This document shows positions 4,622 to 32,090 of a DNA stretch of 64,000 nucleotides, one piece after another. Every line of letters begins with the position of its first letter. Position 1 is the first letter of the stretch. Position numbers and translations under genes: made by a program. Below the pieces are notes generated by a model, which was not told the origin of the DNA, made no database searches, and saw only the letters and a list, made by a program, of their open reading frames with translations. This DNA comes from Deltaproteobacteria bacterium (lineage in GTDB: Bacteria > Myxococcota_A > Polyangia > JAAYKL01). The stretch lies in the NCBI GenBank assembly GCA_030595125.1, contig JAUVDV010000002.1, positions 1-64,000 on the forward strand, read 5' to 3'.

Positions 4622-4652
4622 GACTTTCGGTTGTTTCCCGAAGTTCCCTCGT

Positions 4653-4686
4653 TTGTCACATGCATGTTACAAACCGGATCTAGATC
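4653..4686 (+). promoter_or_regulatory. Putative Pho box and -10 of phoB-like gene
   Basis: Two half-sites, TTGTCACA and ATGTTACA, have their G residues 11 bp apart (4655 and 4666). The hexamer TAGATC starts 15 bp after the second half-site, the same offset as in the pst, porin and lipoprotein promoters. The gene has no Shine-Dalgarno sequence. Transcription from this promoter would start at or near the ATG codons at 4687/4693, suggesting a leaderless message and autoregulation. Confidence 0.55.
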
Positions 4687-5385
4687 ATGATCATGGCGAC
4701 AAAGAAAATATTGATAGTGGAAGATGAACCCGACCTGGTCGGTGTGCTGGAGTACAACCTCAAAAAAGAGGGCTATTCGGTCGAATCAGCCCTTACGGGT
4801 TCCGAGGCGCTGCGCAAGATCGCGGCGGGACAGTTGCCAGATCTGATTCTTCTCGATCTCATGCTGCCGGACATCTCCGGTGTGGATGTCTGCCGGCAGT
4901 GCAGGTCGCAAGAGAGAACGCGGACGGTTCCAATACTCATGTTGACCGCAAGGGGCGAGGAAACTGATCGTGTCGCCGGATTCGAAGTGGGCGCTGACGA
5001 CTACGTCACCAAGCCGTTCAGCGTGCGAGAGCTGATGCTGCGCGTGAAGGCGTTGCTCAAGAGAACGAGCGCCCCGATCCGTGAGGACGATGAGATCCGT
5101 TTCGGTACCGTGCGAGTTGATGTGCCGGGGCATCGGGTATGGGTGGGCGATGGGGAGATCGGGCTCACCGTTCTGGAGTTCAACCTCCTGACCACGCTCG
5201 TGAGCAGGAAGGGTCGCGTGCAGACCAGGGAGCGCCTGTTGACCGACGTCTGGGATATTCATGCGGATGTCACAACCCGAACCGTCGATACCCATGTCAA
5301 ACGCCTTCGGGAAAAGCTGGGTCAGGCGGGTGAGTATATCGAGACGGTACGCGGTGTGGGTTACCGGTTTGCGCAAAATGATTGA
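4687..5385 (+). CDS. phoB: PhoB-like OmpR-family response regulator
   Basis: A full-length (232 residues) receiver plus winged-helix regulator. The receiver has the acidic pocket E12-D13-E14, phospho-acceptor D57 in LILLDLMLPD, T87 and K109 (YVTKPFS). The C-terminal half matches the OmpR/PhoB DNA-binding domain, including TRTVDTHVKRLREKL and GVGYRF. It is followed after 12 bp by a PhoR-like kinase. The phosphate role is inferred from similarity, from Pho-box-like sites across the window and from the pst operon at 27752. Two ATGs (4687 and 4693) are possible, neither with a Shine-Dalgarno; 4693 gives a start of MATKK. Confidence 0.88.
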   Translation: MIMATKKILIVEDEPDLVGVLEYNLKKEGYSVESALTGSEALRKIAAGQLPDLILLDLMLPDISGVDVCRQCRSQERTRTVPILMLTARGEETDRVAGFEVGADDYVTKPFSVRELMLRVKALLKRTSAPIREDDEIRFGTVRVDVPGHRVWVGDGEIGLTVLEFNLLTTLVSRKGRVQTRERLLTDVWDIHADVTTRTVDTHVKRLREKLGQAGEYIETVRGVGYRFAQND

Positions 5386-5397: not shown

Positions 5398-7140
5398 GTG
5401 AGGCTCGGCGTACGCGGCAAGCTCCTGGCGATCTTCTTCGCCATAGTGCTGGTGGTAGTTCTCGTGTCGGGGATCATTCTGTCGACGGTGATGAAGGCGA
5501 AGCTCGAGTCAAGTGTTGAGGCGGAGCTGTGGCGTCACGCCAGGATGGCGAGTGTATTGCTCGACAACGCGTCCGGCGACTGGTCGATAAATGCGGCAGA
5601 TGCTCTGGCCGACACCATCGGTGAGGCCATCGGCGATCGAATCACAATCATCCTGAAAGACGGCCGGGTGATCGGTGACTCGGAGCTGACGCCGTTGGAA
5701 GTCGGCCGCATCGAGAACCACAAGAAGCGTTCCGAGATTTCTGGAGCTCTCGATGATGGCCAGGGGATTTCCAGGAGATACAGCACGACGATGGAAGGAG
5801 ACCTGCTCTATTGTGCCGTGCGATTCGGCGTGACCGAAACGGTCGGGGTGGTGAGAGTGGCTCGACCTCTCATGGAGGTCGAACGGGCGGTGACAGCGCT
5901 CTACGGTGTGCTGGTTGTGGCGGGACTGATTGGTCTGGCCCTCGCGCTGCTGATGGGCGCGGCGATCTCGCACTACTTCACGAGGGCCCTGAGAGGGTTG
6001 GTGGACTTTGCAAATAGCGCGGTGAATGGAAAGCACACGCCCGCCCCTCCATACAGAGGAAACGAACTTGGCGGTCTGGCCGGCTCCGTTCAGATCCTTG
6101 CCGAAGAGTTGGGCAGAAGGCTCGACGATCTCGCGGCAGAGCGCAACCTGTTCGGCGCGGTGCTCGACGGCATGAGCGAGGCGGTCATTGCCCTGGACAG
6201 AAATCGGCGCGTCACCCTCATCAACGACGCGGGTATTCATCTGCTGGGTCTGGGCGAGCAGCCCATCGGGAAGACCATCCTGGAGACCATCCGGGTGCCC
6301 GAACTCAACGAATTACTCAACGAGGTGGAGCCTGGGAAGAACGCCGAGATCGAATTTGACTTTGGATCCTCGTTGCGCAGGAAGGTAATGGCGACGGCCT
6401 CTCGCAGGGAGGAGGGCGACTACGTAGTCGTGTTCCTTGACGTCACCGAACTTCGCCGGTTGGAGACTCTGAAAAGGGATTTCGTATCCAACGTTTCCCA
6501 CGAGCTCCGCACGCCGGTCAGCGTGATCAAGGCGAACGCGGAGACCTTGCAGTCCGGGGCCATACACGACAAGGACGCGGCCGACCGCTTCTTGCAGTCG
6601 CTCATCGCCAATGCCGAGCGGTTGTCGAACCTCATATCGGACCTGCTGGATCTCTCCCGCATCGAAGAGGGGAAGTACGACCTCGATATGGAGCCGGTTC
6701 CTCTTGGCCTTTCTCTTCGCCGCGCGGCCGCAGCGCTGGAGACCCAGGCTATCGAGAAGGGGGTCGACGTTACCATAGAGCCCTGCGGAGATCTGAAGGC
6801 CCAGGCTCATGCAAAGGGCCTGGACCAGGTCCTTTTCAACCTCGTCGAAAATGCCGTCAAGTATACCCAGGACGGTGGGAACGTCCACCTCCGGGGCGTC
6901 CTCGAGGATGAAATGGCGAGGATCGAAGTTGAGGACGATGGTCCGGGAATCGAACTGCGATTTCGAGGGCGTTTATTTGAGCGGTTTTTCCGCGTGGACA
7001 AGGGGAGATCCCGCGAGATGGGCGGCACCGGGCTCGGCCTCGCGATTGTAAAACACCTCGTCACCGCGATGGGCGGACAGGTGGGTATGCGGCCCGCAAA
7101 GGACGGTGGGTCGATCTTCTGGGTGGATCTCAAGATCTAG
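5398..7140 (+). CDS. phoR: PhoR-like sensor histidine kinase
   Basis: A 580-residue membrane kinase. A first transmembrane helix (about residues 9-31), a periplasmic loop of roughly 135 residues and a second helix (about 168-192) are followed by a HAMP-like region and a PAS-like segment (about 250-350). The phospho-acceptor is H368 in NVSHELRTP. The ATPase domain shows N box (NLVENAVKYT), G1 (DDGPGI) and G2 (GTGLGLAI). The large periplasmic loop differs from E. coli PhoR, which lacks one, and resembles the extracytoplasmic-sensor PhoR/PhoP-type kinases. The start is GTG, 12 bp after the regulator stop. Phosphate specificity is an inference from partner and regulon. Confidence 0.88.
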   Translation: MRLGVRGKLLAIFFAIVLVVVLVSGIILSTVMKAKLESSVEAELWRHARMASVLLDNASGDWSINAADALADTIGEAIGDRITIILKDGRVIGDSELTPLEVGRIENHKKRSEISGALDDGQGISRRYSTTMEGDLLYCAVRFGVTETVGVVRVARPLMEVERAVTALYGVLVVAGLIGLALALLMGAAISHYFTRALRGLVDFANSAVNGKHTPAPPYRGNELGGLAGSVQILAEELGRRLDDLAAERNLFGAVLDGMSEAVIALDRNRRVTLINDAGIHLLGLGEQPIGKTILETIRVPELNELLNEVEPGKNAEIEFDFGSSLRRKVMATASRREEGDYVVVFLDVTELRRLETLKRDFVSNVSHELRTPVSVIKANAETLQSGAIHDKDAADRFLQSLIANAERLSNLISDLLDLSRIEEGKYDLDMEPVPLGLSLRRAAAALETQAIEKGVDVTIEPCGDLKAQAHAKGLDQVLFNLVENAVKYTQDGGNVHLRGVLEDEMARIEVEDDGPGIELRFRGRLFERFFRVDKGRSREMGGTGLGLAIVKHLVTAMGGQVGMRPAKDGGSIFWVDLKI

Positions 7141-7274: not shown

Positions 7275-7282
7275 TAGAAAAC

Positions 7283-12557: not shown

Positions 12558-12582
12558 CGAACCGGTAACAACGGCAGGGGGA

Positions 12583-12608: not shown

Positions 12609-12646
12609 TCCTCTACGTGCGCAAGGTGTGTTTGGTGAAAAGCATT

Positions 12647-15871: not shown

Positions 15872-15882
15872 GGAACGCTGAT

Positions 15883-16545
15883 ATGGCGCCGGCATCGCTA
15901 TTCTCACGCAAGGTCGCTCGTCTGATGGTTGCTTTTGCGACCATGTTGGGTGGGTGCGCGCTCGTGCTCTTTCTCCTGCTATTGATGAACTCGCAAAATC
16001 AGCCGCCCCCCAAGGAAGACATTTCCCGGCAGGGGATGGAGGTGGTTGCGGCGAAGAAGAAGCCCAAAAGGAAGAAGAAGCCAAAGCCGCGACCCAGGAA
16101 AAAAGTGACCAGGAGATCATCCAGGCCCGCCCCGGTTCCACAACTGGCCACCGCCCTTTCCGGTATGAGCTTCGGGTTGCCCCAGATGTCGGGGATGGAT
16201 CTGAGCAGCGCAACCGACAAGGTCCTCGGAAATGACACGATCTCGGATACGGTGATGAACGCCGCCACCGTGGACGTGAAACCGAGACCACTCGCGCAAG
16301 CAAGGCCCGTCTATCCGTCGAGAGCTCGGTCGAACAACGTCGAGGGCTATGTGGTCCTCAATATGCTCATCGGCAAGGACGGGCGGGTCAGCCGAGTCAA
16401 GTTGATCGAGTCCGAGCCCCCGGGAGTATTCGACGATGCTGTCATGTCGGTGGCTCAGACGTGGCAATTCGAGCCCGCCCTGTATCAGGGACAACCGGTG
16501 GCGATGCGCGCGACCCAGCGTATTCCCTTCAAGCTGGGAAACTGA
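15883..16545 (+). CDS. tonB: TonB energy transducer
   Basis: A 220-residue protein: short cytoplasmic N-terminus, transmembrane helix (about 15-35), a Lys/Pro/Arg-rich stretch (KKKPKRKKKPKPRPRKK), a linker, and a canonical TonB C-terminal domain (PVYPSRARSNNVEGYVVL, then DGRVSRVKLIES and W-QFEPA). The Pro-Lys segment is short, implying a narrow reach compared with E. coli TonB. The start is ATG with GAGG upstream; the longer open frame overlaps exbD and is rejected. It is the likely partner of the receptor encoded two genes downstream. Confidence 0.9.
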   Translation: MAPASLFSRKVARLMVAFATMLGGCALVLFLLLLMNSQNQPPPKEDISRQGMEVVAAKKKPKRKKKPKPRPRKKVTRRSSRPAPVPQLATALSGMSFGLPQMSGMDLSSATDKVLGNDTISDTVMNAATVDVKPRPLAQARPVYPSRARSNNVEGYVVLNMLIGKDGRVSRVKLIESEPPGVFDDAVMSVAQTWQFEPALYQGQPVAMRATQRIPFKLGN

Positions 16546-16548
16546 GTG

Positions 16549-17724
16549 ATGCGGCGTCTGCGCACGATGCTATGGGTGGCGGTGGTCTTCATCGGCGTGG
16601 AGTGTGTCGCGTTCGGGGCTCCGCAGCACAAGAAGGAAAAGGAGCCGGAGGTGGATCACCTGGCCCTCGCCTCCTTGATGTTGAAAGACGGGCATTACGA
16701 TCGGGCGGCGACGGTGCTGTCCGAAATCGTGCGCAAGGAGCAAGGGGAGGATTTCGACCTCCCCAGATATTACATGATCTTCGGCCTCGTTCAGCTGGAG
16801 AGGCATGAGCACGGGGCGGCGAAGAAGTCGTTCGAGAAATCGATAGAGGCGGGGCAGACCGAGCCCGTGGTTCATGTTTTCCTCGCCCAGGCGCTGTTTG
16901 GTCTCCAGGACTACGCCGGGGTGGTGGAGGAACTGGACAGAGCGAAGGGGGCTGCGGAAGATCTGCCCGGCGCATTCATGATACGCGCCCAGGCCCATTA
17001 CAAGATGGATGACAGGCCGGTGGCCTTCAGGGCGTTGGAGAGGGGCCTGAAGCGACACCCCGGCGATCTGGAATTGCTGCGTTTCCGGGTGCTTCTGCTG
17101 GTCGACATGGAGCTCTTCCAGCAAGCCGTGGTGGAAGGTAGAGCATACCTCGACCGAGAGGAAGTGAAGAGAGAGGACTACGCGGTAGTCTGCGAAGCCT
17201 TCATCAAGGGAGGGGATCCGGACAGTGCGGTGTTGCTGCTGGAGGAGGCCAGACTCCGGTACGTCGAGGATGTCGATATCGCTCTTCAGCTTGCACGCGC
17301 TTACCTGAAAATGGGGAGGATCCTGACCGCGGCGAGGCTCTTTCACAGTGTGGCCAGGGCGGATGTCGGGATGGTGCTGGATGCCGCCGAGCTGTATCGT
17401 CGCGCGGGGAAACTCTCCATGGCCCTCTCCCTGAACGCCGACGTGGCCGCACAGGATGCAAAGGTGCGCCAGCGGCTGGGTATCCTCATCGAGATGGGGC
17501 GCTTCGAGGAGGCGGCGGCTCTCGAACCCAGGCTTACCCGGTTGGGTCTCCTTGAGGAGAACTCGGTCAGGTACGCGCTTGCGTTTGCCCTGTTCAAGAC
17601 GGGGAGATTCGACAGGGTGGAGAGGCACCTCGAACTCATTCGGGATCCAGCCCTGTTCGAGAAGGCGGTGGAGCTGAGGCGGGCAATGGATCTGTGCCGG
17701 GCTTCGGGATGGGAGTGCGAGTGA
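16549..17724 (+). CDS. TPR-repeat periplasmic protein of TonB operon
   Basis: A 391-residue protein with a signal peptide (cut after about AFGA) and tetratricopeptide-type helical pairs throughout, such as LASLMLKDGHYDRAATVLSE and VVEELDRAKGAAEDLPGA. TPR proteins close DUF3450/TtpC/ExbBD/TonB operons in Vibrio-type TonB2 systems, where they are thought to help transport. A GTG three bases upstream (16546) is an alternative start. The stop overlaps the receptor start (ATGA at 17724). Confidence 0.82.
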   Translation: MRRLRTMLWVAVVFIGVECVAFGAPQHKKEKEPEVDHLALASLMLKDGHYDRAATVLSEIVRKEQGEDFDLPRYYMIFGLVQLERHEHGAAKKSFEKSIEAGQTEPVVHVFLAQALFGLQDYAGVVEELDRAKGAAEDLPGAFMIRAQAHYKMDDRPVAFRALERGLKRHPGDLELLRFRVLLLVDMELFQQAVVEGRAYLDREEVKREDYAVVCEAFIKGGDPDSAVLLLEEARLRYVEDVDIALQLARAYLKMGRILTAARLFHSVARADVGMVLDAAELYRRAGKLSMALSLNADVAAQDAKVRQRLGILIEMGRFEEAAALEPRLTRLGLLEENSVRYALAFALFKTGRFDRVERHLELIRDPALFEKAVELRRAMDLCRASGWECE

Positions 17725-20700
17725 TGAGGTTCGCCCGGGCTCCGCAGGTGGTGGTCATTTTCTCGTTAATTATGCTCGCGGCCTCCTCGGCGTCGACCGA
17801 AGATCTGAAGGGAAAGGTGCGGGGGATAGTTTTTGACGACGAAACCTCGGCGCCCATGGCCGGGGTGAGCATGCTCATCGATGGTGTCCGGGTGGGCGTG
17901 ACAAACGAGGATGGCGCCTTCGACCTGGAGCTTGATGTAGGGGAGTACGTATTGGTGCTGGAAAAGGACGGGCAACAATGGCCGCCGATGAAGCCACTGA
18001 CGGTCGGGTCAGGGCAAAGTCAGGAGCTAATTGTGGACGCGGGACCTCATGATGAACCCGTGGAGGTGTCGGTGGAGGGTAGCGAAGGCGAAGCGACGAG
18101 CGCTCCCGTTGTTACGAAGGAAGCTGTCGTTTCCATCGTCGAGGGGGTCGTCATCCATGATGAAGAGGGCATCGGGATAGAAGGGTTCCGCATCTTCGTC
18201 AGGGGTCTTTCCGGGGAAGTGCGGACTGACGGCGAGGGGCGCTTCGCGCTCGAGATTCCGGTGGGGAAATACGACCTGTTCGCGGTGCATCCCGAGTTCT
18301 CGACAGTCTCAAAGGCAGGCGTGGAGGTGAGGGAGGGGGAGTCGAGCTTTGTCGAGATGGAAGCGATCCCGGTGGGCATGCAGTTGGATGATCTGGTGGT
18401 CTCGGCTCCTAAAATCGAAGGTGGCACCGCCGCGCTCATGCAGGAGCGTCAACAGGCGGCCACTGTCAACGATGTGATCGGCGCCGAGCAGATGTCCAAG
18501 GCGGGGGATTCCGATGCGGCCGGCGCGTTGAAGAGGGTGACGGGGGTCACGGTGGTCGACGGGAAGTACATTTACGTGAGGGGGTTGGGAGAGCGATACT
18601 CCTGCACCCTCCTCAACGGCGCGACCCTCCCTAGCCCCGAACCGGAACGGAGGGTCGTTCCTCTCGATCTCTTCCCGACCGGGATACTCGAAAGCGTTGT
18701 GATTCAAAAAACCTTCAGCCCGGACATGCCCGCCGAGTTCGGTGGCGGCGCCGTGATATTGAGGACGAGAAGTTACCCGGAGGAGTTCACCCTGGACATC
18801 AAGCTGTCCGCCGGTGCGACTGTCGGTACGACGTTTACCGAGGGGCTCATGGCGCAGGGAGGTCCAACCGACTGGTTGGGGATCGACGGCGGCTACAGGG
18901 CGCTTCCCGCCGAGGTGGGGAACGCGTCAAAGAAAGATTATCTTCTCGAAGGGGATATGCTCAACCCGGGGTACTCGGCTGATGAACTGGAGCACTTCGG
19001 CGAGGCCATGAGGAACAACTGGCGAACCTATCGCGACACCATCCCTCCGGATCTTGGCGGTTCTGTCACCGTGGGCAACAGATTCAATCTCTTCGGGGCG
19101 AAGCTCGGGTTCCTCGCAGCTTTGATTTATGCGAACGAGTGGGAGCGGGATCGGGCGAAGATAAATATCCTCTCCGGCGGGGCCGAGGGGGAGGGGGCGA
19201 CGGTCTTCCACAGGTATCAGTGGGACGAGACTACAAACGAGATCCGCGCGGCGGGAATCCTCAATATGGGGTTGGAACTGTCGGATGACCACCGCATAGA
19301 ATCGACGACCCTCCTCAACCGGATAACTGACGACGCCGCCCGCAATTACTGGGGCTACAACCGGGATCTGGGGAACGATATCAGGGTGTGGCGAATCCGC
19401 TGGGTGGAGCGGACCCTGATCACTCAGCAGCTTTCGGGGGAGCATGTGATCCCGCCGCTCATGGGGCTGGTGGTGGATTGGCGATACAGCTACTCGAGAG
19501 CAATTCGCACCGAGCCCGACCGGAAGGATGTGGCGTACAACCGGGAGGGTGAGACCGACCTGTGGCTGCTTTCGGACCGGCCCGAGGGGAACATGCGGGT
19601 CTTTAGTGAGATGCTCGAGGATGCTCACGATATGGGGATGGGGTTGTCTCTGCCCTTCAATCAATGGACGGACGAGGAGGCGAAGGTGAAAGTCGGCGGT
19701 TCGATCATGCTCAAGAATCGTAACGTGGACACCAGAAGATATAAGTACAAGTTCAGGTCCCCTGAAGCGGCCGTTTCTTCACTCCCTCCCCACCTCCTGT
19801 TCACGCCGGAGTTTATCGGCATGACGGATCAGTACGGCGTGCACAACAAGTTCGAGGAGGTGACCAGGCCCACGGACAACTACACGGCGGAACACGAAAT
19901 CTTTGCCGGGTACGCGATGACGGACTTCCCTCTGGGGTTTGGGTTCTCCCTGCTCGGGGGGATGAGGGTGGAGCAGTCCAGGCAGTTCGTGCGAACCTAT
20001 GCGCTGTTCGGGGACGAAGACTCGGAGCCGGTGGACGCAACCATCGATACCATCGATTATCTTCCCGGCGTGACGGCGTCGTGGGAGTTTGCGGATGACA
20101 TGGTCGCCCGGGTGGGCGTCAGCCAGACCGTGTCGAGACCCGACTTCAGGGAGATGTCGCCGTCGTCGTTCACCAACGTGATCGGCGGCAGGGATGTGGA
20201 AGGCAACCCCGACCTCGATCGCACATTGATCACCAGCGTGGACGCGCGCTGGGAGTGGTACTTCAGCTCGAGGGAGAGCCTGTCCTTCGGGGGATTCTTC
20301 AAGCATTTCGAGGAGCCTATCGAGCGCATCGTTGTCCTGCGGGCACAACACGCCGAGTCCTACGCGAACGCGAAGGCCGCGAGGAACCTAGGTCTGGAGC
20401 TGGACTTCCGCAAAAACATGGGCTTCATCAACGAGGCTCTGGAGGACCTCTATTTGGCGGGCAACGCCACCTGGGTGTATTCGCGGATCGAGCTGACGGA
20501 CGAAGGCATCCAGACAAACTCCAGGAGGCCGCTTCAGGGGCAGAGCCCGTTCGTCATCAACGCGGTCATCGGGTACGACAATCTGAACTGGGGGACCAAC
20601 ATCGCTCTTTTGTACAATGTATACGGCAAGCGGATCTCCACGGTCGGAGCCCGGGGGGGACAGGGCACCGAGGGTCTTCCCGACGAGTACGAGATGCCCT

Positions 20701-20870
20701 TTCACAATCTGGATTTTGTGGTTTCCCAGACTCTTGGAGCGGGTTTCAAACTGGGTTTCAAGGCGAAGAATCTGATCGATCTTCCTTACAGATACGAGCA
20801 GGGAAGCGAGGTGACCGAGATAGGCAAGAAGGGTCGCTCTTTCAGCCTGTCCCTTGGCTACAGCTACTGA
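17724..20870 (+). CDS. TonB-dependent outer-membrane receptor with N-terminal carboxypeptidase-regulatory-like repeats
   Basis: A 1048-residue receptor. After the signal peptide come two carboxypeptidase-regulatory-like beta-sandwich repeats (about 25-110 and 135-205), a TonB-box-like DDLVVSA near 220, a plug domain (VNDVIGAEQM, YIYVRGLGERY, PAEFGGGAVILRTR) and a 22-strand-type barrel ending in the aromatic FSLSLGYSY. The regulatory-like repeats suggest a receptor of the kind common in Bacteroidota and Deltaproteobacteria. The ligand is not readable; the genomic setting with PhoBR, an OprP-like porin and Pst points to phosphate or a phosphorylated compound. Confidence 0.9.
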   Translation: MRFARAPQVVVIFSLIMLAASSASTEDLKGKVRGIVFDDETSAPMAGVSMLIDGVRVGVTNEDGAFDLELDVGEYVLVLEKDGQQWPPMKPLTVGSGQSQELIVDAGPHDEPVEVSVEGSEGEATSAPVVTKEAVVSIVEGVVIHDEEGIGIEGFRIFVRGLSGEVRTDGEGRFALEIPVGKYDLFAVHPEFSTVSKAGVEVREGESSFVEMEAIPVGMQLDDLVVSAPKIEGGTAALMQERQQAATVNDVIGAEQMSKAGDSDAAGALKRVTGVTVVDGKYIYVRGLGERYSCTLLNGATLPSPEPERRVVPLDLFPTGILESVVIQKTFSPDMPAEFGGGAVILRTRSYPEEFTLDIKLSAGATVGTTFTEGLMAQGGPTDWLGIDGGYRALPAEVGNASKKDYLLEGDMLNPGYSADELEHFGEAMRNNWRTYRDTIPPDLGGSVTVGNRFNLFGAKLGFLAALIYANEWERDRAKINILSGGAEGEGATVFHRYQWDETTNEIRAAGILNMGLELSDDHRIESTTLLNRITDDAARNYWGYNRDLGNDIRVWRIRWVERTLITQQLSGEHVIPPLMGLVVDWRYSYSRAIRTEPDRKDVAYNREGETDLWLLSDRPEGNMRVFSEMLEDAHDMGMGLSLPFNQWTDEEAKVKVGGSIMLKNRNVDTRRYKYKFRSPEAAVSSLPPHLLFTPEFIGMTDQYGVHNKFEEVTRPTDNYTAEHEIFAGYAMTDFPLGFGFSLLGGMRVEQSRQFVRTYALFGDEDSEPVDATIDTIDYLPGVTASWEFADDMVARVGVSQTVSRPDFREMSPSSFTNVIGGRDVEGNPDLDRTLITSVDARWEWYFSSRESLSFGGFFKHFEEPIERIVVLRAQHAESYANAKAARNLGLELDFRKNMGFINEALEDLYLAGNATWVYSRIELTDEGIQTNSRRPLQGQSPFVINAVIGYDNLNWGTNIALLYNVYGKRISTVGARGGQGTEGLPDEYEMPFHNLDFVVSQTLGAGFKLGFKAKNLIDLPYRYEQGSEVTEIGKKGRSFSLSLGYSY

Positions 20871-20887
20871 GGGTTGTGGAGGATGAG

Positions 20888-21481
20888 ATGAGCAGGGTCG
20901 GGTTCCACGTGGTGATATTGACGGCAGCTCTGATGCTTGCTGTGACTGTGGGATGCGAGCAAAAGAAGCAGCATTTCGAGAGCAGTGACTTTTACGGAGC
21001 CTGGTTTCCGTGCCTGGATGAATCCTGTGAGGCGCCAGGAGAGCACGGTATAGCGTTCGCCGGGGATCGGTGGTTTTACCGGGGAAGTTACGAGGCGCCG
21101 TCGGAGCCGGGGGAAGAGGCGATAATGGAGTTCGACGAGAGGGAGTGTTGCTGGGATGTGAAGGACGATCATATCGTTATTGACCTCGGGGATTCGTACC
21201 AGAGCCTGTGGCCGCGCTTCGAAAAGGCCGACGTCATGCAACTGGAGATGCTCAGTTTCAGGGTTCTGGACAGGGAAACACAGGACTGGCACACACATGA
21301 GTGTCACGAAGGTGAAGTATTCGATCCGGTGGACGCCGGCGATCAGGAGGATCCGGAAGCATGGACTCCGGAGGTATGCTGGACAGAACACTGGGCGCCA
21401 CTGGGACGAGCCGCGAGACTTCTGGACGAGCACGATCTCGAGGCGCTGGTTTTCGTTCCTGACGCAGACGGCGATTTCTGA
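20888..21481 (+). CDS. Small lipoprotein following the TonB receptor
   Basis: A 197-residue lipoprotein with lipobox VTVGC and a Cys- and Trp-rich, acidic mature region (YGAWFPCLDESCEAPG, ERECCWDVKDD, PEVCWTEHW). It starts 17 bp after the receptor with GGAGG five bases before ATG, so it belongs to the same operon. Possibly an accessory binding lipoprotein for the receptor; no family was recognised. Confidence 0.75.
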   Translation: MSRVGFHVVILTAALMLAVTVGCEQKKQHFESSDFYGAWFPCLDESCEAPGEHGIAFAGDRWFYRGSYEAPSEPGEEAIMEFDERECCWDVKDDHIVIDLGDSYQSLWPRFEKADVMQLEMLSFRVLDRETQDWHTHECHEGEVFDPVDAGDQEDPEAWTPEVCWTEHWAPLGRAARLLDEHDLEALVFVPDADGDF

Positions 21482-21504
21482 GCGTTCTCTTCACAGTTGT
21501 GACG

Positions 21505-21560
21505 GTTTCACCCACCATTAACTGATTCGTCACCGAGGTGTCACACGCCCTGCCTAGGGT
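21505..21560 (+). promoter_or_regulatory. Putative double Pho box and promoter of OprP-like porin
   Basis: Four half-sites are spaced exactly 11 bp: TTCAC (21507), TTAAC (21518), GTCAC (21529) and GTCAC (21540). A hexamer TAGGGT (21555-21560) lies 15 bp after the last half-site. The pst promoter has four half-sites, and TAAGGT at the same offset. The array ends 57 bp before the porin ATG. Confidence 0.65.
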
Positions 21561-21601
21561 TTTTGCAGCTGGAATCGGTGGTTCCAAAGGAGGACGAATC
21601 A

Positions 21602-22828
21602 ATGAAAAGCATATCGAAGCTATCTCGGATGGCGGTTTCCGTCGTGGTGGCGGTGGTTCTCTCGGTCTTATCCATATCGACGACCGCGTCGGCGCAGGAC
21701 AATCCCGTCGCCGGCTACGACAAGGGTTTCTTCATCCAGGATTCAAAGGGGCTGTTCAAGCTGGTCGTGGGAGCCGCCATGCAGCCGCAGTTCGCTTTTG
21801 AGAGCGGACAGGAGCACGTGGAGGAAGTGGACGACGCGACCGGTGACACCGTCGTCCTTGCGCGGACCGATCGGGAGCCCGAGTACGCCTTCCTGATAAG
21901 GCGGGCCGAGTTGAAGCTGAAGGGTCACGCCTTTTCAAAGAATGTCACCTACGGCTTCATGGCCGATTTCGGCAAGGGCACAGTCGCGCTCAAGGATTAT
22001 TATCTCGACTTCGCGCTAGCCCCCAAGGTCTTCCACATGAGATTCGGCAGCTACAAGAAGCCGTTCTCGCGCCAGCAGATAAATTCGAGCAGCAAGCTCG
22101 AACTCGTCGACAGATCCATCACCGACAAGGCCTTCGGTCAGGGAAGGGATCTCGGTCTCATGTTCCATAACAAGTACACCAAGTCTCCGACCTTCGAGTG
22201 GGCGGTGGGTGTATTCAACGGCACGGGGGTGAAGCCCTGGTTCGAAGGCGACGTGGAGGTAGACCCGGAAACCGGAGAGGGGGAAGTAACAAAGGGAAAG
22301 ACGACGAACGTGCCCGACAGGTTCCATCCGTTGGTCGTGGCGCGCATCGGGTACAACCGAGGCGATCTCAAGGGATACAGCGAGGCGGATCTCGAGGGAG
22401 GGCCCCTTCGGTTCGGTGTGGGACTTTCGGGGATCGCAGATTTCGACTCCGACGAATCGGATGACTCGAACATTCGCTCGCAGCTGGATCTGATCCTCAA
22501 GGTGAACGGCTTCGCCGCCACCGCCGCGGCGTACGTGATGACCGCGCAGGACGGGTCCGGGTTTTCCGATCAGGCATACTCCGCATGGGGAATGCACGCC
22601 CAGGCCGGGTACGTCTTCAACAAGCTCATACAGCCGATAGTGCGCTACGCCATCGTCGACTACGACGGCGAGCACAACAACACCCAGGAGGTAACCGGCG
22701 GCCTCTCGGTCTACATCTTCGGACACAACCTCAAGTGGCAGACAGACGCCGGCGGGCGACTCCACGAGCACGAGATGGGGGACCTGACAGACATCGTGGT
22801 GCGATCTCAGGTGTCGCTGGGGTTCTGA
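21602..22828 (+). CDS. OprO/OprP-like phosphate-selective porin
   Basis: A 408-residue outer-membrane protein with signal peptide (cut after TASA) and the OprO/OprP family pattern: GFFIQDSKGLFKL, F.IRRAELKLKGH, YLDFALAPKVFHMRFGSYK and KPFSRQQINSSSKLELVDRS. The C-terminus ends in a Phe (SQVSLGF), as expected for BAM recognition. Family members form trimeric anion channels, several selective for phosphate or polyphosphate; the Lys/Arg-rich strands fit. Ribosome-binding site GGAGG lies 9-10 bp before ATG. A double Pho-box-like array immediately upstream supports phosphate control. Confidence 0.88.
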   Translation: MKSISKLSRMAVSVVVAVVLSVLSISTTASAQDNPVAGYDKGFFIQDSKGLFKLVVGAAMQPQFAFESGQEHVEEVDDATGDTVVLARTDREPEYAFLIRRAELKLKGHAFSKNVTYGFMADFGKGTVALKDYYLDFALAPKVFHMRFGSYKKPFSRQQINSSSKLELVDRSITDKAFGQGRDLGLMFHNKYTKSPTFEWAVGVFNGTGVKPWFEGDVEVDPETGEGEVTKGKTTNVPDRFHPLVVARIGYNRGDLKGYSEADLEGGPLRFGVGLSGIADFDSDESDDSNIRSQLDLILKVNGFAATAAAYVMTAQDGSGFSDQAYSAWGMHAQAGYVFNKLIQPIVRYAIVDYDGEHNNTQEVTGGLSVYIFGHNLKWQTDAGGRLHEHEMGDLTDIVVRSQVSLGF

Positions 22829-22923
22829 TGCGGGTTTCCGGCTGATGACTTCCCGGCTGATGAGTTGCTTAATCTCCATGCACGCTTTATGTTTTAGTTA
22901 TCGGCCTTAACCGAGGAGTCGAC

Positions 22924-23166
22924 ATGCTGGAAATACTCGAACAAGTCCTTATGCGGCTGCGTAAGAACCCGGGGCGCCCCGTGCGCGCGCGTCTGGACGA
23001 AATGGAAGTGGAAATACGCATGGTGAAATCCCAAGCGCGTTCGAGCCGACTTGGCGATCATATCGCCTCGCTGGGTCCGTGGAGCGGCGAATCGGCCGAA
23101 GAAATTACAGAGCTTATCGCCGGAGCCCGCAAAGATGGCGGCTCGGTGGAACCACCGGTGTTTTGA
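22924..23166 (+). CDS. VapB-like antitoxin of PIN toxin pair
   Basis: An 80-residue protein immediately upstream of and overlapping (TTGA) a PIN-domain toxin gene. A short helical N-terminus is followed by a basic segment and a C-terminal EEITELIAGAR motif that recalls VapB C-terminal toxin-binding tails. The start is supported by GAGG ten bases upstream. DNA-binding fold not assigned with certainty. Confidence 0.68.
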   Translation: MLEILEQVLMRLRKNPGRPVRARLDEMEVEIRMVKSQARSSRLGDHIASLGPWSGESAEEITELIAGARKDGGSVEPPVF

Positions 23167-23606
23167 AATACCTCCTCGATACCAATGCCGTAATAGCCGC
23201 TTTGAACGGAAGACCGCGCCTGATCGACGAGCTCAACGCGCTTCCTCCTTCGGATGAGCTTTTGTTGTCGGTCATCGTCTTCGCTGAATTGAGATACGGC
23301 GCACTTTGTTCTTCTCGCCGGGATGAAAACCTGGCGCGCGTGGAATCGTTGATCTCGGTGTTTGAATTCGTGGACGTTTCGTGGTCCGTCGCCGCCCGTT
23401 TTGCCGATATCAAGGCAGACCTGCGTCGCCGTGGCATCGCCAAGTCCGACGCCGATCTGCTCATCGCGGCCACGGCGCTTGAGGAGAAAGCGGTGTTGGT
23501 AACCAACGACCACGCGATGCTCGATGGATCGATCCCTGATCTCATCTATCGTGATTGGCTGGCTGAACCGCCGGTTCCAAACGGTAGCAAACCGGTCCCG
23601 TCGTAG
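23163..23606 (+). CDS. PIN-domain VapC-type ribonuclease toxin
   Basis: A 147-residue PIN domain. Acidic active-site residues are visible: D6 in LLDTNAVIAAL, E in FAELRYGAL, D in SDADLLIAAT, and D in VTNDHAML. The likely start is TTG overlapping the antitoxin stop (TTGA), so the pair is coupled. VapC toxins cleave specific RNAs and are held inactive by VapB. Confidence 0.85.
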   Translation: MKYLLDTNAVIAALNGRPRLIDELNALPPSDELLLSVIVFAELRYGALCSSRRDENLARVESLISVFEFVDVSWSVAARFADIKADLRRRGIAKSDADLLIAATALEEKAVLVTNDHAMLDGSIPDLIYRDWLAEPPVPNGSKPVPS

Positions 23607-23624
23607 ATCCAAAGAAGACCATCG

Positions 23625-25133
<1,509 letters not shown>

Positions 25134-25466
25134 GGATCTCCATCTACCGCGGGGTAAACCCCACGGCAACGATGTCCTTCGGACAAGTCCAGGCGGACTA
25201 TCGTCGGACAGCCCTCTTGGGCTTGTCGCCTCGGGCGACATCGTTGCCGCGTCATTCATGGCGCGGTCAAAAGCCGGGCGCCTCCCGATACGTCAACGAT
25301 CGTTCACCGTCCGCGCAAAGTCTTTGAAAGTAGTTGACTTTGCTGGGTTTTTTCCCGATTTGGTGTTGACAACTTCCGGGTTCTGTTTCACTGACGGTGT
25401 AATCACTCTACATCATTAACTCCCGCGAGAGGTTCTCGCGGCAAGCTATTAAGAGGAGGTTTTGAG
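25134..25466. other. Intergenic region with hairpin
   Basis: No gene is apparent in 333 bp. It contains a perfect inverted repeat CCGCGAGA-GGT-TCTCGCGG (25423-25441) 26 bp before the next ATG, and TTGACT/TTGACA hexamers at 25334 and 25366 without a convincing -10. The hairpin lies in the probable 5' leader of the next gene. Confidence 0.5.
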
Positions 25467-26219
25467 ATGGTATCAAAAATGGTGACTGACCGGCGGAAGT
25501 CTTCCGATTCGGTTCAGTCGGCCGGGCATGAGTATGAGAACAACATCGTCGAGAGTATCGGGCGGATCTTCGGATCCGAGGCGGGCGTTGCCGCCGGGAC
25601 GCTGGCCAGGGCGGCCGTGGTCACCCTGAAGACGGATACCGACGACATGCTCACGGCCGACAATGTTCATCAGGGCGAGATCGCCGACGACACATCGGTC
25701 ATCGAAGACAAGACCGAGAAGTCCACGGCCGTGCGAGCGAGCCTGGTGGAGACCAGGGAGATGAGCGGCGCCGTGTACGGCCCTGCTTTCGTTCGTGAGC
25801 TCGGCTTCGAGGGCCTGACCCCGGTCGATCCGGTCGCGGTGCATCAACTCGGCGTCCTGGTTCTCGACAAGCTGCGCACGATAGAGGCCCCCAAACCCAA
25901 GAACCCGGCGATCAAAATGGACCTGGGCGCGCTCACCGGACCGCTCGCGGACAGCCTTGGCGAACTGAACGCGGCGATCAAGGTCGTCAGCGACGAGAAA
26001 AAGCAGGCCGTCACGAAGCTCTCGGCGAAGAACAAGTCCATCGACAAATACGATGAGATCTTTTCGGCTGCGGCAAACCTTATCTCAACGATGCTGAGAG
26101 TTTCGGGCGAGGAAGAACTGGCCGGCAAGGTCAGACCGTCCACTCGCCGCCCCGGAAATACCGCCGAAATCGGCGACGTCAAACCCCCGACCACGCCCGA
26201 TACCCCGGATATCGCTTAA
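25467..26219 (+). CDS. Hypothetical protein, 250 residues
   Basis: The product is soluble with no signal peptide or membrane helix. It is Ala-, Asp- and Lys-rich, with a disordered Pro/Thr-rich tail (TTPDTPDIA). The start is supported by GAGGAGG 9-13 bases upstream. I recognise no family. A 42-bp tandem repeat array lies just beyond its stop. Confidence 0.65.
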   Translation: MVSKMVTDRRKSSDSVQSAGHEYENNIVESIGRIFGSEAGVAAGTLARAAVVTLKTDTDDMLTADNVHQGEIADDTSVIEDKTEKSTAVRASLVETREMSGAVYGPAFVRELGFEGLTPVDPVAVHQLGVLVLDKLRTIEAPKPKNPAIKMDLGALTGPLADSLGELNAAIKVVSDEKKQAVTKLSAKNKSIDKYDEIFSAAANLISTMLRVSGEEELAGKVRPSTRRPGNTAEIGDVKPPTTPDTPDIA

Positions 26220-26236
26220 CAAATCGTCTTTCAGTC

Positions 26237-26471
26237 CCCCAATTGCGATCTTATCGCCCAAGAAGGCGAATGGGAAATCCCCAATCGCGAACTTATCGCC
26301 TGAGAAGCCGAATGGGAAATCCCCAATCGAGCACTTTGTACCTAAATAGTAGACTGAGAAATCCCCAATCGCGTACTTTGCACCTGAGAAGGCGAATGGA
26401 AAATCCCCAATCGCGGTCTTATCGCCTGAGAAGCCGAATGGGAAATCCCCAACCCCCGTCTTTGCTCGATA
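26237..26471. repeat. 42-bp tandem repeat, five copies plus partial
   Basis: The boundary CCCCAAT recurs at 26237, 26279, 26321, 26363, 26405 and 26447, an exact 42-bp period. The core GAAATCCCCAATCGCG is conserved; copy 3 is the most diverged. Because 42 is a multiple of three, both strands stay open: the minus strand would read repeats like IGDFPFGFSGDK. Some changes between copies are synonymous on the minus strand (TTC/TTT, GGC/GGT), but there is no ribosome-binding site and I do not call a gene. Confidence 0.85.
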
Positions 26472-26568
26472 AACGCCTCCTCCGACCGGAGAAAGAAAAG
26501 TGACTGGCACCGTTTTGAGGGGGGGGCAAAACCCGATCTTTTAAATGGCTTCTCTCCTTCAATTAGAC

Positions 26569-27219
26569 TCAGAACTCAAAGCTCAACGTCGGCCCCGCCA
26601 GGGCGACCTGCAGGTTCAGGCGTTTGAGGTTCCTGCGGAGCCTTCCCAGACGCTTGCCGGCGACGATGATCATTATCCCACCTGCAACAATGAGAGCGCC
26701 GCATACGGCCAACCCGCCGTCCATTAGCCAGGGCAATAGGTTTTTCTCAGCAGCTGCTTCGTAGATGAGCAACCCCCCGCCCACTACCAGACCTGTCGTC
26801 AAACCCACGATACCAACTATCTTTACTTGTCTCGCCTTCTCCTCGGCGGTGCTCCACATGGAGTGAAGAAAGCCGGGGAAACCCTGCGGATGAGCCGCGC
26901 CTCTGTGCAAGTACTGCGACCACTCATCCATGAGAGGCTTGCCAATCTGCTTTACCGCGAACCAATAGTCAGGCGGGAACCCGCCCTGGTCGGTGTGCAT
27001 AGCCGGTGCCTGCTGTGTAGGTTGTACAGGTGGAGGAGTCGGCGAAGGAGCCGGCGTTTGGGCCGTGGGCAAAACCGGCACGGGCTGTGTAGGTTGGGCT
27101 GGAGGCTGGGCCGCTTGTGTCTCTGTCGGTTGCTGCGAAGGTGGGTCCTGTTGCGCTACCGCGACCGAAGACGTTAGAAAAACCATCGCAAGAAACATCA
27201 GCCAAGATATTTTTTTCAC
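26569..27219 (-). CDS. Membrane protein with Pro/Gln-rich linker
   Basis: A 216-residue protein. A signal peptide (cut after SVAVA) is followed by a long Pro/Gln/Thr-rich linker (about 24-75), a soluble segment with WFAVKQIGKPLMDEW, and two adjacent transmembrane helices (about 145-165 and 172-195) before a basic C-terminal end. The GTG start at 27219 has GGGAGGGG six bases upstream; longer starts lack context. Family and function unknown. Confidence 0.65.
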   Translation of the reverse strand: MKKISWLMFLAMVFLTSSVAVAQQDPPSQQPTETQAAQPPAQPTQPVPVLPTAQTPAPSPTPPPVQPTQQAPAMHTDQGGFPPDYWFAVKQIGKPLMDEWSQYLHRGAAHPQGFPGFLHSMWSTAEEKARQVKIVGIVGLTTGLVVGGGLLIYEAAAEKNLLPWLMDGGLAVCGALIVAGGIMIIVAGKRLGRLRRNLKRLNLQVALAGPTLSFEF

Positions 27220-27751
27220 TTTCCCCTCCCGTTTGCGCCAAAAAAAAAGGCGAATGGATTGGACCCTTGCGAGAAACCCACCCGCCCATCGGCACAAACA
27301 GTCGGGTACCACCCGACTGCGCAACCGCAGCGGAATACAAGGGTCCTTGTCTTGAGCCTTCCGGCGTCTCTCTCCGTCACGGGTGGTGAGTCCGTCGAGC
27401 CCGTTTTGCGGGCGGGAGAACGGTGCCGTTTTGCTCAGAAGTTATTTTCACCGATTGACACGAAATATTCAACCATTGTGAGGGAGAGCGTGAGGCAAGC
27501 TTTAGCCCGTGAAAAGACCGCGTCCCTTCAGGACGCATGTTTCTATGTATTTCCCAAACCTGGGGTTGAAAACCCCAGGCTATATTCCCCCGCCGCTTTG
27601 CGGCGAAAAAAACGACCACCTTTTTTTTCACAGTTCTTGGCTAACGCGAGCCGGGTCGCGGTTTTAACGCCGATGTTTCAAAGGCGTAACTCATTCGTAA
27701 CAAAGAAATCCTAAGGTTGTTTTTGGGGAAAGAGAAAGGAGCCCAACAATC
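27220..27751. other. Intergenic region with three hairpins upstream of pst operon
   Basis: No credible gene in 532 bp. It contains inverted repeats GCGTCC-N5-GGACGC (27520-27536), CCTGGGGTT-GAA-AACCCCAGG (27559-27579) and CGCCGC-TTT-GCGGCG (27591-27605), followed by the pst promoter. The middle hairpin with its short flanks resembles scattered palindromic elements of many genomes, but no second copy occurs in this window. Confidence 0.55.
27662..27717 (+). promoter_or_regulatory. Putative double Pho box and promoter of pst operon
   Basis: Half-sites TTAAC (27664), GTTTC (27675), GTAAC (27686) and GTAAC (27697) are 11 bp apart, the spacing of PhoB-bound direct repeats. A -10-like TAAGGT (27712-27717) lies 15 bp after the last one. 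The array ends about 50 bp before pstS. Confidence 0.65.
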
Positions 27752-28855
27752 ATGAAGAAAGTAATCAATAAATTTGCGGTTGCTCTGGTCCTGGCGATGG
27801 TCTTCGCATTGGCGTGCGGTGAGCAGCCTGCGCCGCAGGCGAAGGGCGACGGGGAAACGAGGGACGCCGAGGAGACTCGCGAGGCGATCACGCTCAACGG
27901 CGCGGGGGCGACGTTCCCGTACCCCATTTATTCCCAGTGGGCCCACACCTACCACAAGGTGGCCGGCACAAAGCTCAACTACCAGTCCATCGGCTCCGGT
28001 GGCGGCATCGCCCAGATAAAGGCGAAGACCGTCGATTTCGGCGCCTCGGACGCCCCTCTGAAGCCCCCGTATCTCGACGGGATAGGGCTCATCCAGTTCC
28101 CGATGATCATCGGGGGAGTAGTGCCGGTCGTGAACATCGAAGGCATCGAGCCCGGCGCCCTGAAGCTCACCAAGAATCTCCTTGCCGACATCTTTCTTGG
28201 GAAGATCAAGAAATGGAACGACAAGCGCATCAAGGATACCAACCCCGATCTGAATCTGCCCGACAAGGAGATCGCCGTGGTTCACAGAGCCGACGGCTCG
28301 GGCACCACCTGGATCTTCACCAACTACCTCGACAAGGTAAGCCCGGAGTGGAGCGAGAAAGTCGGAACGGCAAAGGCGGTTGAGTGGCCGACCGGGATGG
28401 GCGGCAAGGGCAACGAGGGCGTGGCCGCCTACGTGCAGCGGGTCAAGGGGGCCATTGGATATGTCGAGTTTGCCTATGCGCTGCAGAACAAGATGGCCCA
28501 TGTGAAACTCCAGAATACGGCGGGCCATTTCGTGGAACCGACGATCGAGACCTTTCAGGCTGCCGCGGCGGGAGCCGACTGGGTCAATGCCGAGGGTTTC
28601 TACATTGTCTTGACGGACCAGCCCGGCGAGAAGAGCTGGCCCATCACGGGCGCTTCCTTCATCCTCATGTACAAGGAGCAGAAGAACGCCGACATCGCGA
28701 AGGCGGCCCTCGACTTCTTCGACTGGTGTTACGAGCACGGGGCGCAGAAGGCCGAGGAACTGCACTACGTTCCAATGCCGGAGGAAGTGGCTGATATCGT
28801 CCGGAAGCTCTGGGCGGACGAGCTGAAATCGGCCGGCAACCCCATCTGGAAGTAA
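27752..28855 (+). CDS. pstS: PstS phosphate-binding lipoprotein
   Basis: A 367-residue periplasmic phosphate-binding protein with lipobox FALAC, so anchored rather than freely soluble. The conserved phosphate-binding segments are present: GAGATFPYP, SIGSGGGI, DFGASDAPL and HRADGSGTTWIFT. It delivers phosphate to PstCA. First gene of pstSCAB-phoU, with Pho-box-like sites upstream. Confidence 0.96.
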   Translation: MKKVINKFAVALVLAMVFALACGEQPAPQAKGDGETRDAEETREAITLNGAGATFPYPIYSQWAHTYHKVAGTKLNYQSIGSGGGIAQIKAKTVDFGASDAPLKPPYLDGIGLIQFPMIIGGVVPVVNIEGIEPGALKLTKNLLADIFLGKIKKWNDKRIKDTNPDLNLPDKEIAVVHRADGSGTTWIFTNYLDKVSPEWSEKVGTAKAVEWPTGMGGKGNEGVAAYVQRVKGAIGYVEFAYALQNKMAHVKLQNTAGHFVEPTIETFQAAAAGADWVNAEGFYIVLTDQPGEKSWPITGASFILMYKEQKNADIAKAALDFFDWCYEHGAQKAEELHYVPMPEEVADIVRKLWADELKSAGNPIWK

Positions 28856-28864
28856 CCCGCCTCG

Positions 28865-29809
28865 ATGACCGCAATCCGCAAGAAGAACTCCGGGACAAGC
28901 AGATCGGACCTGGTATACCGGGTGGTGGCCGTCGGCGCCGCCGCCCTGGTGCTCATCCTCATGGCCGGGCTCATGCTGGAGCTGATCGTCAACTCGGGAC
29001 CGTCCATTCTGAAGTTCGGCGTCGGCTTCCTGGGCTCCACCTCGTGGAATCCCGTGACCGAGGAGTTCGGCGCCCTCTCGAGCATCTTCGGCACCCTGGT
29101 GAGCACCGTCATCGCGATGATCATCGCCGTGCCACTCAGCTTGCTCATCGCCCTCTTCCTGGTGGAGCTAGCCCCGCCGGCCATATCCAGGCCTGTCGGA
29201 TACGCCATCGAGTTGCTCGCTGCGGTGCCCAGCATCATCTTCGGAATGTGGGGCCTGTTTGTCTTCGCTCCCTTCATGGCCGACCACGTGCAACCGGCTC
29301 TCAAGAACACGCTCGGTTTCCTTCCGCTGTTCGACGGTCCCCCCATGGGCATCGGGATGCTCACCTCCGGTATCATCCTCGCCCTCATGGTGCTGCCGTT
29401 CATCACGGCGGTGATGCGCGACGTGTTCAGGATGGTTCCGCCGGTCGTAAAGGAGGCGTCGTACGGGATGGGCTCCACCACATGGGAGGTGACCCGCAAG
29501 GTGACGGTCAAGTACGGGTTCTCCGGGCTTTTGGGGGCAGTATTCCTGGGACTCGGGCGCGCGGTGGGCGAGACCATGGCCGTGACCTTCGTCATAGGAA
29601 ACAACCACAATGTTTCCTCGTCGCTGTTCGCGGCGGGCAACAGCATCGCGTCGACCCTGGCCAACGAATTCACCGAGGCGTCGGAGCCCATGTATCTGTC
29701 GAGTCTGGTTGAACTGGGTCTGGTGCTGTTTGTAATGACACTGCTGATCCAGATCGCGGCCCAATTGTGGATACGGCGTGTCGCCAAAAAAGCGGGAGGT
29801 GGCCTGTGA
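28865..29809 (+). CDS. pstC: PstC phosphate ABC transporter permease
   Basis: A 314-residue inner-membrane permease with about six transmembrane helices and the coupling loop EASYGMGSTTWEVTRKV typical of PstC. It pairs with PstA. It starts 9 bp after pstS and overlaps pstA by 4 bp (GTGA). Confidence 0.94.
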   Translation: MTAIRKKNSGTSRSDLVYRVVAVGAAALVLILMAGLMLELIVNSGPSILKFGVGFLGSTSWNPVTEEFGALSSIFGTLVSTVIAMIIAVPLSLLIALFLVELAPPAISRPVGYAIELLAAVPSIIFGMWGLFVFAPFMADHVQPALKNTLGFLPLFDGPPMGIGMLTSGIILALMVLPFITAVMRDVFRMVPPVVKEASYGMGSTTWEVTRKVTVKYGFSGLLGAVFLGLGRAVGETMAVTFVIGNNHNVSSSLFAAGNSIASTLANEFTEASEPMYLSSLVELGLVLFVMTLLIQIAAQLWIRRVAKKAGGGL

Positions 29810-30651
29810 AACCCAGACCATCCACCGGGCGAAAGCTCACCGATCTCTTTGTCAAGGGACTGTCCATAGCCGCCTCTCTTCTGGGGATCTTCGTTCTGGG
29901 GTGGATCTTGTTCGAGGTGGGCGCGAGGGGATTCGCTGCTCTCAACTGGGATTTCTTCACCCAACTCCCGACGCCGCCCGGCGTGGAGGGAGGCGGCCTC
30001 TCGAGCGCCATTGTGGGCACCCTCATCATTACGGCTCTCGCCACGGTGATCGGTGTCCCCATCGGTATGATGGCCGGCGTCTACCTGGCGGAGGTGGGAA
30101 AGGGCACGCGCCTCGCGTCTGCGGTGAGGTTCACGGTCAATGTGATGATGGGCATCCCGTCCATCATCATCGGGCTGTTCATCTACACTATCATGGTGCT
30201 GCCGTTCGGCCACTTCTCGGGGCTCGCCGGCGCCGTGGCTCTGGCGATTATCATGCTTCCCGTGGTGGCCCGCACGGCGGACGACATGCTCAATCTGGTT
30301 CCCAACGAGCTGCGTGAGTCGGCGCTGGCGCTCGGGCTGCCGCGCTGGCGGGTTACCTTCGCGGTGGTCTTCCGCTCCGCAAAATCCGGTCTGGTCACCG
30401 GAGTGCTTCTGGCAGTCGCCCGCGTGAGCGGCGAGACGGCGCCGCTGCTGTTCACGTCCCTCAACAGTGTTTACTGGCCCACTTCGTTATCGGAGCCCAT
30501 GAGCAATCTCACGGTTACCATTTTCAACTACGCCATGTCGCCCTACCCGGACTGGCAGCAGGCGGCGTGGGGAGCGTCATTGCTCATCATGGCGGCCGTG
30601 CTGTTCGTCAACATAATTTCTCGTGGAATGTTCAAGGAGAGGAAGAAATGA
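29806..30651 (+). CDS. pstA: PstA phosphate ABC transporter permease
   Basis: A 281-residue permease with six predicted helices and the EAA-type loop [16 protein letters not shown]. The GTG start overlaps the pstC stop, with GGGAGG about 8 bases upstream; the longer in-frame extension into pstC is rejected. Overlaps pstB by 4 bp (ATGA). Confidence 0.94.
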
Positions 30652-31406
30652 ACCCGATCAAGATCTCAACGCGGGGACTCACCTTTTTCTATGGCGAGCA
30701 ACAGGTGCTGTTCGGGAACGATCTGGACATCGCGCAGGGCAAGGTGACCGCCATTATCGGGCCGTCGGGTTGTGGCAAGTCCACCCATATTCGCGTCTAC
30801 AATCGGATCTACGAACTCTACCGGGATCAGAAAGCCGGCGGCCAGGTCTTGATTGACGGCGTGAACATCCTGGCAGATGGAGAGGATCTCATCGAGCTGC
30901 GGCGTCGGGTGGGTATGATCTTTCAGAAGCCCACTCCGTTTCCCATGACCGTCTACGACAACGTGGCATACGGCCTCAAGATGCACTACAAGCTGTCGAG
31001 ATCCGAGATGCGCGACCGGGTTGAAGAAGCGTTGAAGCAGGCGGCCTTGTGGGATGAAGTCAAGGACGAGCTGAGCAGACCGGGCATGGCGCTTTCGGGA
31101 GGACAGCAGCAGAGGTTGTGTATCGCCCGGGCGATTGCGGTGGAACCCGAGGTTCTGTTGATGGACGAGCCCACCTCGGCCATTGATCCGGTGGCCACCG
31201 CCCGCATCGAGGAACTGATCGAATCATTCAAGGGTCGTTACACGGTAGCCATCGTGACCCACAACATGCAGCAGGCGGCCAGGATCTCCGATTACACGGC
31301 ATTCTTTTTCGAAGGGAAGATCGTTGAATTCAGCAGTACAGAAAAGATTTTTACGAATCCGAATGAAAAAAAGACGGAGGACTACATCACCGGCCGGTTC
31401 GGTTAA
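30648..31406 (+). CDS. pstB: PstB phosphate transporter ATPase
   Basis: A 252-residue ABC ATPase with Walker [10 protein letters not shown], signature LSGGQQQRL, Walker [11 protein letters not shown] and switch His in VTHNMQQA. Q-loop [15 protein letters not shown] is the PstB form. Provides ATP hydrolysis for phosphate import. Confidence 0.96.
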
Positions 31407-31436
31407 CCCCGATGTTAGAAACCCCAGGAGATTACC

Positions 31437-32090
31437 ATGGTTAGAGATTCATTGTTGTCCAGGGAGATAGGAAAGCTAAAGGACCAGCTCCTGATCCTCG
31501 GCGGCGAGGTGGAGCGGGCCCTGGGCAACGCCGTCAGATCGGTGGAGGATCGGGACAGGGAGCTGGCGGTGCGGGTAGTTGAGCACGACGCGCAGATCGA
31601 TCGCCTGGAGGTGGATCTGGAGGAGGAGTGCCTCAAGATCCTTGCGCTCTACCAGCCCGTCGCGGCCGACCTGCGCTTCATCGTGACGGTTCTCAAAGTC
31701 AACAACGACCTGGAGCGAATCGGCGACCTGGCGGCAAATATCGCCGAATACACTCTCATGCTGAACGGGGAGGGGGATATCACGTTCTCCTATGATTTTG
31801 CGACCATGGCATCCAAAACCCGGCAAATGCTCACTGCGAGCCTGGATGCCCTGGTCAATCGGAGTTCGGAAATAGCCCACCGGGTGCGAATGGCCGACGA
31901 CGAGGTGGACGAGATCCACTGTCAGATGTACGGCAAGGTGGAGGAGAAGATGAAGGTCCACCCCGAGCTGACAGCCGTCTTGATCAAGCATATCGGGATT
32001 TCCCGTTGTCTGGAAAGGGTAGGGGACCTGGCCACCAATATAGCCGAGGATGTGATCTATCTGGTCACCGGCGAGATAGTTCGCCATTGA
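31437..32090 (+). CDS. phoU: PhoU phosphate signalling protein
   Basis: A 217-residue protein of two three-helix PhoU repeats with the metal-binding motifs E-x3-D-x3-D around VNNDLERIGDLAANIAE and CLERVGDLATNIAED. PhoU links Pst activity to PhoR, damping the response when phosphate is plentiful. Start has AGGAG 7 bases upstream; last gene of the pst operon. Confidence 0.95.
   Translation: MVRDSLLSREIGKLKDQLLILGGEVERALGNAVRSVEDRDRELAVRVVEHDAQIDRLEVDLEEECLKILALYQPVAADLRFIVTVLKVNNDLERIGDLAANIAEYTLMLNGEGDITFSYDFATMASKTRQMLTASLDALVNRSSEIAHRVRMADDEVDEIHCQMYGKVEEKMKVHPELTAVLIKHIGISRCLERVGDLATNIAEDVIYLVTGEIVRH

Follow-up and report, generated by a model that had tools for sequence, protein, structure and literature searches.

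The porin gene found in the window, i.e. in the whole stretch of 64,000 nucleotides analysed here, is preceded by what is most probably a Pho-regulon promoter with two tandem Pho boxes. According to this reading, to which we assign a probability of roughly 0.92, PhoB would induce the porin gene together with pst, phoBR and a distant Na/Pi-cotransporter-like gene, and the porin would take part in phosphate supply. The evidence consists of the motif and its spacing, their statistical excess, their conservation in relatives, the gene neighbourhood and the presence of phoB and phoR in the window. It agrees with the initial annotation, which had placed the porin in the phosphate regulon, the regulation itself being deduced from sequence.

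All four half-sites of the porin array and the TAGGGT hexamer, as they had been annotated, are present on direct reading (Table 1). The half-sites follow each other with a period of 11 bp and are predicted to form two tandem 22-bp boxes. With 20 of 20 consensus letters, this is the sole perfect array of four KTMAC units in the window, and the tandem direct repeat is seen at period 11 only. The annotated distance of 15 bp between the last half-site and TAGGGT holds if counted from start to start; the intervening gap is 10 nt. TAGGGT is thus located where a sigma-70 -10 element (TAnnnT) is expected in Pho promoters, about 10 nt downstream of a last repeat that replaces the -35. Half-sites of the GTCAC/GTAAC type fit the (c/t)GT(n)AC half-site known from PhoB of Desulfovibrio vulgaris. 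Within the window genome, the motif recurs at central phosphate genes, namely pstS, phoB and the Na/Pi-cotransporter-like gene. Transcription is predicted to start at approximately 21565-21568. The start codon is ATG 21602, with an AGGAGG ribosome site about 10 nt 5' of the gene.

The initial annotation held that the pst promoter carries the same array. Number of units, 11-bp period and -10 offset are indeed identical, with the exception that the second pst unit, GTTTC, is degenerate and agrees with the consensus at 3 of 5 positions. TAAGGT of pst could also be read directly at the offset of TAGGGT, and pstS starts with ATG 27752. Since the match between the two promoters is confined to half-sites and the -10, they are not copies of each other.

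Table 1. Features of the phosphate-related region of the window
Feature	Position	Strand	Basis
phoB array GTTTC, TTCCC, GTCAC, GTTAC (weaker) with -10 TAGATC	4633..4686	+	third-best matrix match, 18.7
phoB, OmpR/PhoB-family response regulator	4687..5385	+	TIGR02154, 254.7 bits; Response_reg and Trans_reg_C
phoR, sensor histidine kinase	5398..7140	+	TIGR02966, 269.5 bits; sCache, PAS, HisKA, HATPase
Porin Pho-box array: TTCAC 21507-21511, TTAAC 21518-21522, GTCAC 21529-21533, GTCAC 21540-21544	21507..21544	+	sequence
Porin -10 hexamer TAGGGT (predicted)	21555..21560	+	sequence; same offset at pstS in 9 genomes
Porin gene, Porin_O_P (PF07396), 408 aa, signal peptide	21602..22828	+	Pfam, 34.7 bits (cut-off 20.9)
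pstS Pho-box array: TTAAC 27664, GTTTC 27675, GTAAC 27686, GTAAC 27697	27664..27701	+	sequence; best matrix match in window
pst -10 hexamer TAAGGT (predicted)	27712..27717	+	sequence; offset shared with relatives
pstS-pstC-pstA-pstB-phoU operon	27752..32090	+	Pfam PBP, BPD_transp, ABC_tran, PhoU

The pstS array occurs in all nine family genomes that possess this pstS, invariably with TA at the -10 position (+15); this survey scored half-sites alone, with the -10 unscored and divergent genome G003 excluded. Box-like arrays with the same offset also precede the porin genes of G002, G012, G009, G005, G013, G045 and, in weaker form, G030, each with A at the second -10 position. The porin -10 is weak in several relatives (CAGAGT, CATTGT, GAGAGT, GATATC). 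No box was found upstream of homologous porins of G004, G038, G029, G053 and G008. G004 contains a C-terminal porin remnant of about 75 residues between phoR and pstS (L062 3340-3564, G004:C327), where the pst array is kept, and a full-length porin without array on a separate contig. In G009, two Pho arrays are arranged back-to-back 5' of the porin, one directed toward the porin and the other toward the contig end (L060 6245-6302, G009:C207).

Gene order in relatives links the porin to phosphate genes as well. G002 displays the unbroken order phoB-phoR-porin-pstS-C-A-B-phoU, and the order porin-pstSCAB(-phoU) is found in G012, G005 and G006. The porin also lies within the pho/pst cluster in G009 (convergent with phoU), G037 and G045, the last two of which belong to another family and have phoBR, pst and porin together. 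The pst-adjacent porin copy of G037 sits downstream of pstB and may share the pst operon promoter. Most of the relatives with such a linkage have a box-like array of their own at the porin gene.

What the porin carries is less certain than how it is controlled; this neighbourhood points to phosphate, or to some other phosphorus anion, as the cargo. Alternatively, the promoter could be under Pho control while the porin carries some other anion (pyrophosphate, phosphonate, sulfate, selenite) or serves as a general porin. We consider this less likely than not, with the following points in its favour. Its score exceeds the Porin_O_P gathering score, but the match covers only profile positions 24-146 of 370, i.e. 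the N-terminal third. Comparison of the porin family profile with OprP (2o4v) provides a weak link with E = 0.0036 over approximately 120 residues. ExtI, a putative Geobacter porin that is discussed alongside OprP in its paper, is reportedly implicated in selenite and tellurite reduction. Against this stands the stable linkage of the porin to pstS and phoBR. The AlphaFold model of the porin, built from two sequences only, has a pLDDT of 29.

The candidate regulators are encoded in the window. The phoB product has the receiver (PF00072) and winged-helix (PF00486) domains of the OmpR/PhoB family, and its closest solved full-length chain is RegX3 (2oqr). It is the best PhoB match of the genome, yet it stays below the TIGR02154 equivalog cut-off of 296.2 bits, which was reached in just 2 of 14 control genomes. 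Similarly, the phoR product is the best PhoR match of the genome, yet below the TIGR02966 cut-off (334.2 bits). The matrix score of the phoB array taken alone is not significant genome-wide, 2.2 such matches being expected; the array was accepted because of its position and because the orthologous G002 site scores equally. It predicts autoregulation of phoB. Both at phoB (4681-4693) and at the Na/Pi-cotransporter-like gene (L074 8369-8357, minus strand) the predicted -10 lies six nt before an ATG, so that these transcripts would be leaderless. G002 phoB shows the same arrangement of -10 and ATG. The true phoB start is probably ATG 4693 rather than 4687. The strict-pattern site (defined below) six nt upstream of the Na/Pi-cotransporter-like gene is kept in G002; the product of this gene is read as a Na/Pi cotransporter from the translation, not from a profile.

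From these features we infer PhoB binding, the direction of the response, the transcription start and the porin substrate. At low phosphate, PhoR would activate PhoB, and two phosphorylated PhoB dimers would sit side by side on the four 11-bp direct repeats. The last repeat would stand in for the -35, with PhoB recruiting housekeeping RNA polymerase to TAnnnT 10 nt downstream. The porin gene, pstSCAB-phoU, phoBR and the distant Na/Pi-cotransporter-like gene would thereby be switched on jointly, and the porin would pass phosphate (or another phosphorus anion) over the outer membrane to PstS. Two PhoB~P dimers and polymerase at TAGGGT are proposed on account of the top-scoring PhoB/PhoR pair, the array at phoB and the fit with published facts.

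It is improbable that the array is instead bound by another OmpR/PhoB-family regulator responding to a different signal, e.g. the one encoded at 7106-7975 and adjoining phoR. The genome codes for five full-length PhoB-like regulators, the gene at 7106-7975 is close by, and tandem direct repeats are common binding sites in this regulator family. However, the same motif is also located 5' of pstS, phoB and the Na/Pi-cotransporter-like gene, and at pstS it is kept across the family. Moreover, G002 keeps the boxes while having no homology to the block 7131-21684 that holds the second regulator.

The predicted PhoB sites were compared with chance expectation. Genome-wide statements given here are derived from pattern searches and composition-based expectations. 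When both strands of the window were searched for sets of four KTMAC units that agree with the consensus in 18 or more of 20 letters, each period of 7 to 15 bp being tried, exactly two matches were obtained, at the porin gene and at pstS, both with period 11. The strict pattern KTMACN6KTMACN10TANNNT (two half-sites plus -10) has 4 matches in the 5.39-Mb genome versus 0.85 expected from base composition and 1 in the reversed control. The four matches are the porin gene, pstS, the Na/Pi-cotransporter-like gene (L074) and one uninterpreted site close to the beginning of a small contig. A three-unit pattern search returned the porin gene and one other place. When the wider class is considered, the strict pattern shows no excess above the reversed control, so it is usable as a detector only in combination with position and context.

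A position matrix was trained on pstS promoters of eight other family genomes, the present genome being left out in order to avoid circularity. The best scores in the window are those of pstS (33.3), porin (29.4) and phoB, followed by 12.3; the top score in 100 dinucleotide shuffles of the window was 18.3. The porin score corresponds to p = 5.6e-11 per position, or 0.0006 matches expected per genome. No comparable array was found upstream of the three other Porin_O_P paralogues of the same genome. The likeness of porin and pst promoters therefore exceeds chance, as the initial annotation had argued. A fortuitous resemblance, in which four pentamers and a -10 just happen to be in phase, could appeal to short and degenerate half-sites and to a two-site pattern with -10 expected about once per genome, but it is refuted statistically by the four-site array with -10 (7e-6 expected per genome from base composition), by the rarity of the porin matrix score and by arrays found independently upstream of porin genes in relatives, and retains next to no probability.

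The two promoters were considered unrelated in the initial annotation, which does not hold with respect to their context: relatives have the porin immediately 5' of pstS, and, judged by comparison with G002, the ancestral phoBR-porin-pstSCAB-phoU cluster is split by insertions in the window. Relative to G002, the window contains two extra blocks, 7131-~21684 and 22825-27659. In G002 (L056), the first half-site of the pstS array, TTAAC, contains the stop codon (TAA) of the porin gene. The second, 4.8-kb block of the window starts exactly at this overlap of stop codon and half-site (22820-22828, 27660-27668), and the pst array is spared. Porin proteins of the window genome and G002 are about 90% identical. 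Their promoters share the array alone, and the window porin promoter has no alignable counterpart in G002. Two processes could have led to such divergence: the sequence around the boxes may have drifted fast while selection preserved them, or a second Pho promoter may have taken the place of the original one. A search of 58 relatives for the source of the present promoter detected no homologue, just a 26-base chance-like match. With somewhat less than even odds, we suggest that the outer-membrane route of phosphate in this uncultured deltaproteobacterial lineage is a Porin_O_P porin of a separate branch that became fixed 5' of pstS, and that an insertion which cut the ancestral cluster was followed by replacement or rebuilding of the Pho promoter of the porin gene, the four-unit architecture being kept.

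Between phoR and the porin gene, the window contains a TonB/ExbB/TPR/TonB-dependent-receptor cluster (11106-21481) that is absent at the corresponding site of G002. A homologous TonB-dependent receptor gene is located immediately 5' of pstS in G003 (L072), a genome with no close homologue of the porin. A role of the TonB system (11106-20870) in the phosphate route is not claimed, because a homologue adjoins pstS in G003 alone; visual inspection of other genomes revealed no phosphate gene immediately adjoining a TonB-system homologue. The region 26240-26470, behind the open reading frame 25467-26219, contains short repeats of gcctgagaagccgaatgggaaatccccaat type.

Taken together, the data support the view that the porin gene has a classical Pho promoter, so that a further organism would be added to those with this well-known type of control. 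A predicted Pho regulon can now be defined for a lineage represented here by assembled genomes only, comprising the porin, pstSCAB-phoU, phoBR and the Na/Pi-cotransporter-like gene. The divergent Porin_O_P branch is flagged as a likely phosphorus channel, which is directly testable.

In E. coli, the tandem repeats bound by PhoB are separated by 10 bp from a downstream -10 element of the form TAN3T/A (PMC1906773). The promoters described here resemble E. coli Pho promoters: half-sites of TGTCA type are repeated directly every 11 bp and form one or two tandem boxes, the last unit is at the place of the -35, 10 nt before TAnnnT, and pst and phoB, targets in E. coli, are predicted targets here as well. 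Unlike CTGTCAT of E. coli, the predicted half-site is KTMAC (GTCAC/GTAAC/TTAAC). Search with the E. coli consensus CTGTCATN4CTGTCAT gave no match at the porin site even when 3 mismatches were allowed, hence the E. coli consensus would overlook this promoter. The present case shows that half-sites of the GTnAC kind, and the distance of 10 nt between the last of them and the -10, have a distribution well beyond E. coli.

A likeness also exists to the deltaproteobacterium D. vulgaris, where the PhoB (DVU1083) box determined by DAP-chip is a tandem (c/t)GT(n)AC upstream of pstS-C-A (PMC3333781). The same GTnAC half-site is found in tandem and before pst genes in both organisms; our arrays differ in having four units and a constant distance to the -10. 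In the passages of that study considered here, no porin is named among the PhoB targets (PMC3333781).

With regard to the porin, the closest known counterparts are OprP and OprO of Pseudomonas. To our knowledge, oprO and oprP of P. aeruginosa are not adjacent to pst. They correspond to PA3280 and PA3279, respectively, and phosphate limitation raises both porins by a factor of more than 80 (PMC9769906). The porin of the window resembles them as an outer-membrane Porin_O_P porin, and induction by phosphate limitation, established for OprP and OprO, is predicted for it. It differs from them in that similarity is recognisable in its N-terminal third alone and that in this lineage the porin gene is placed in or beside the pst operon.
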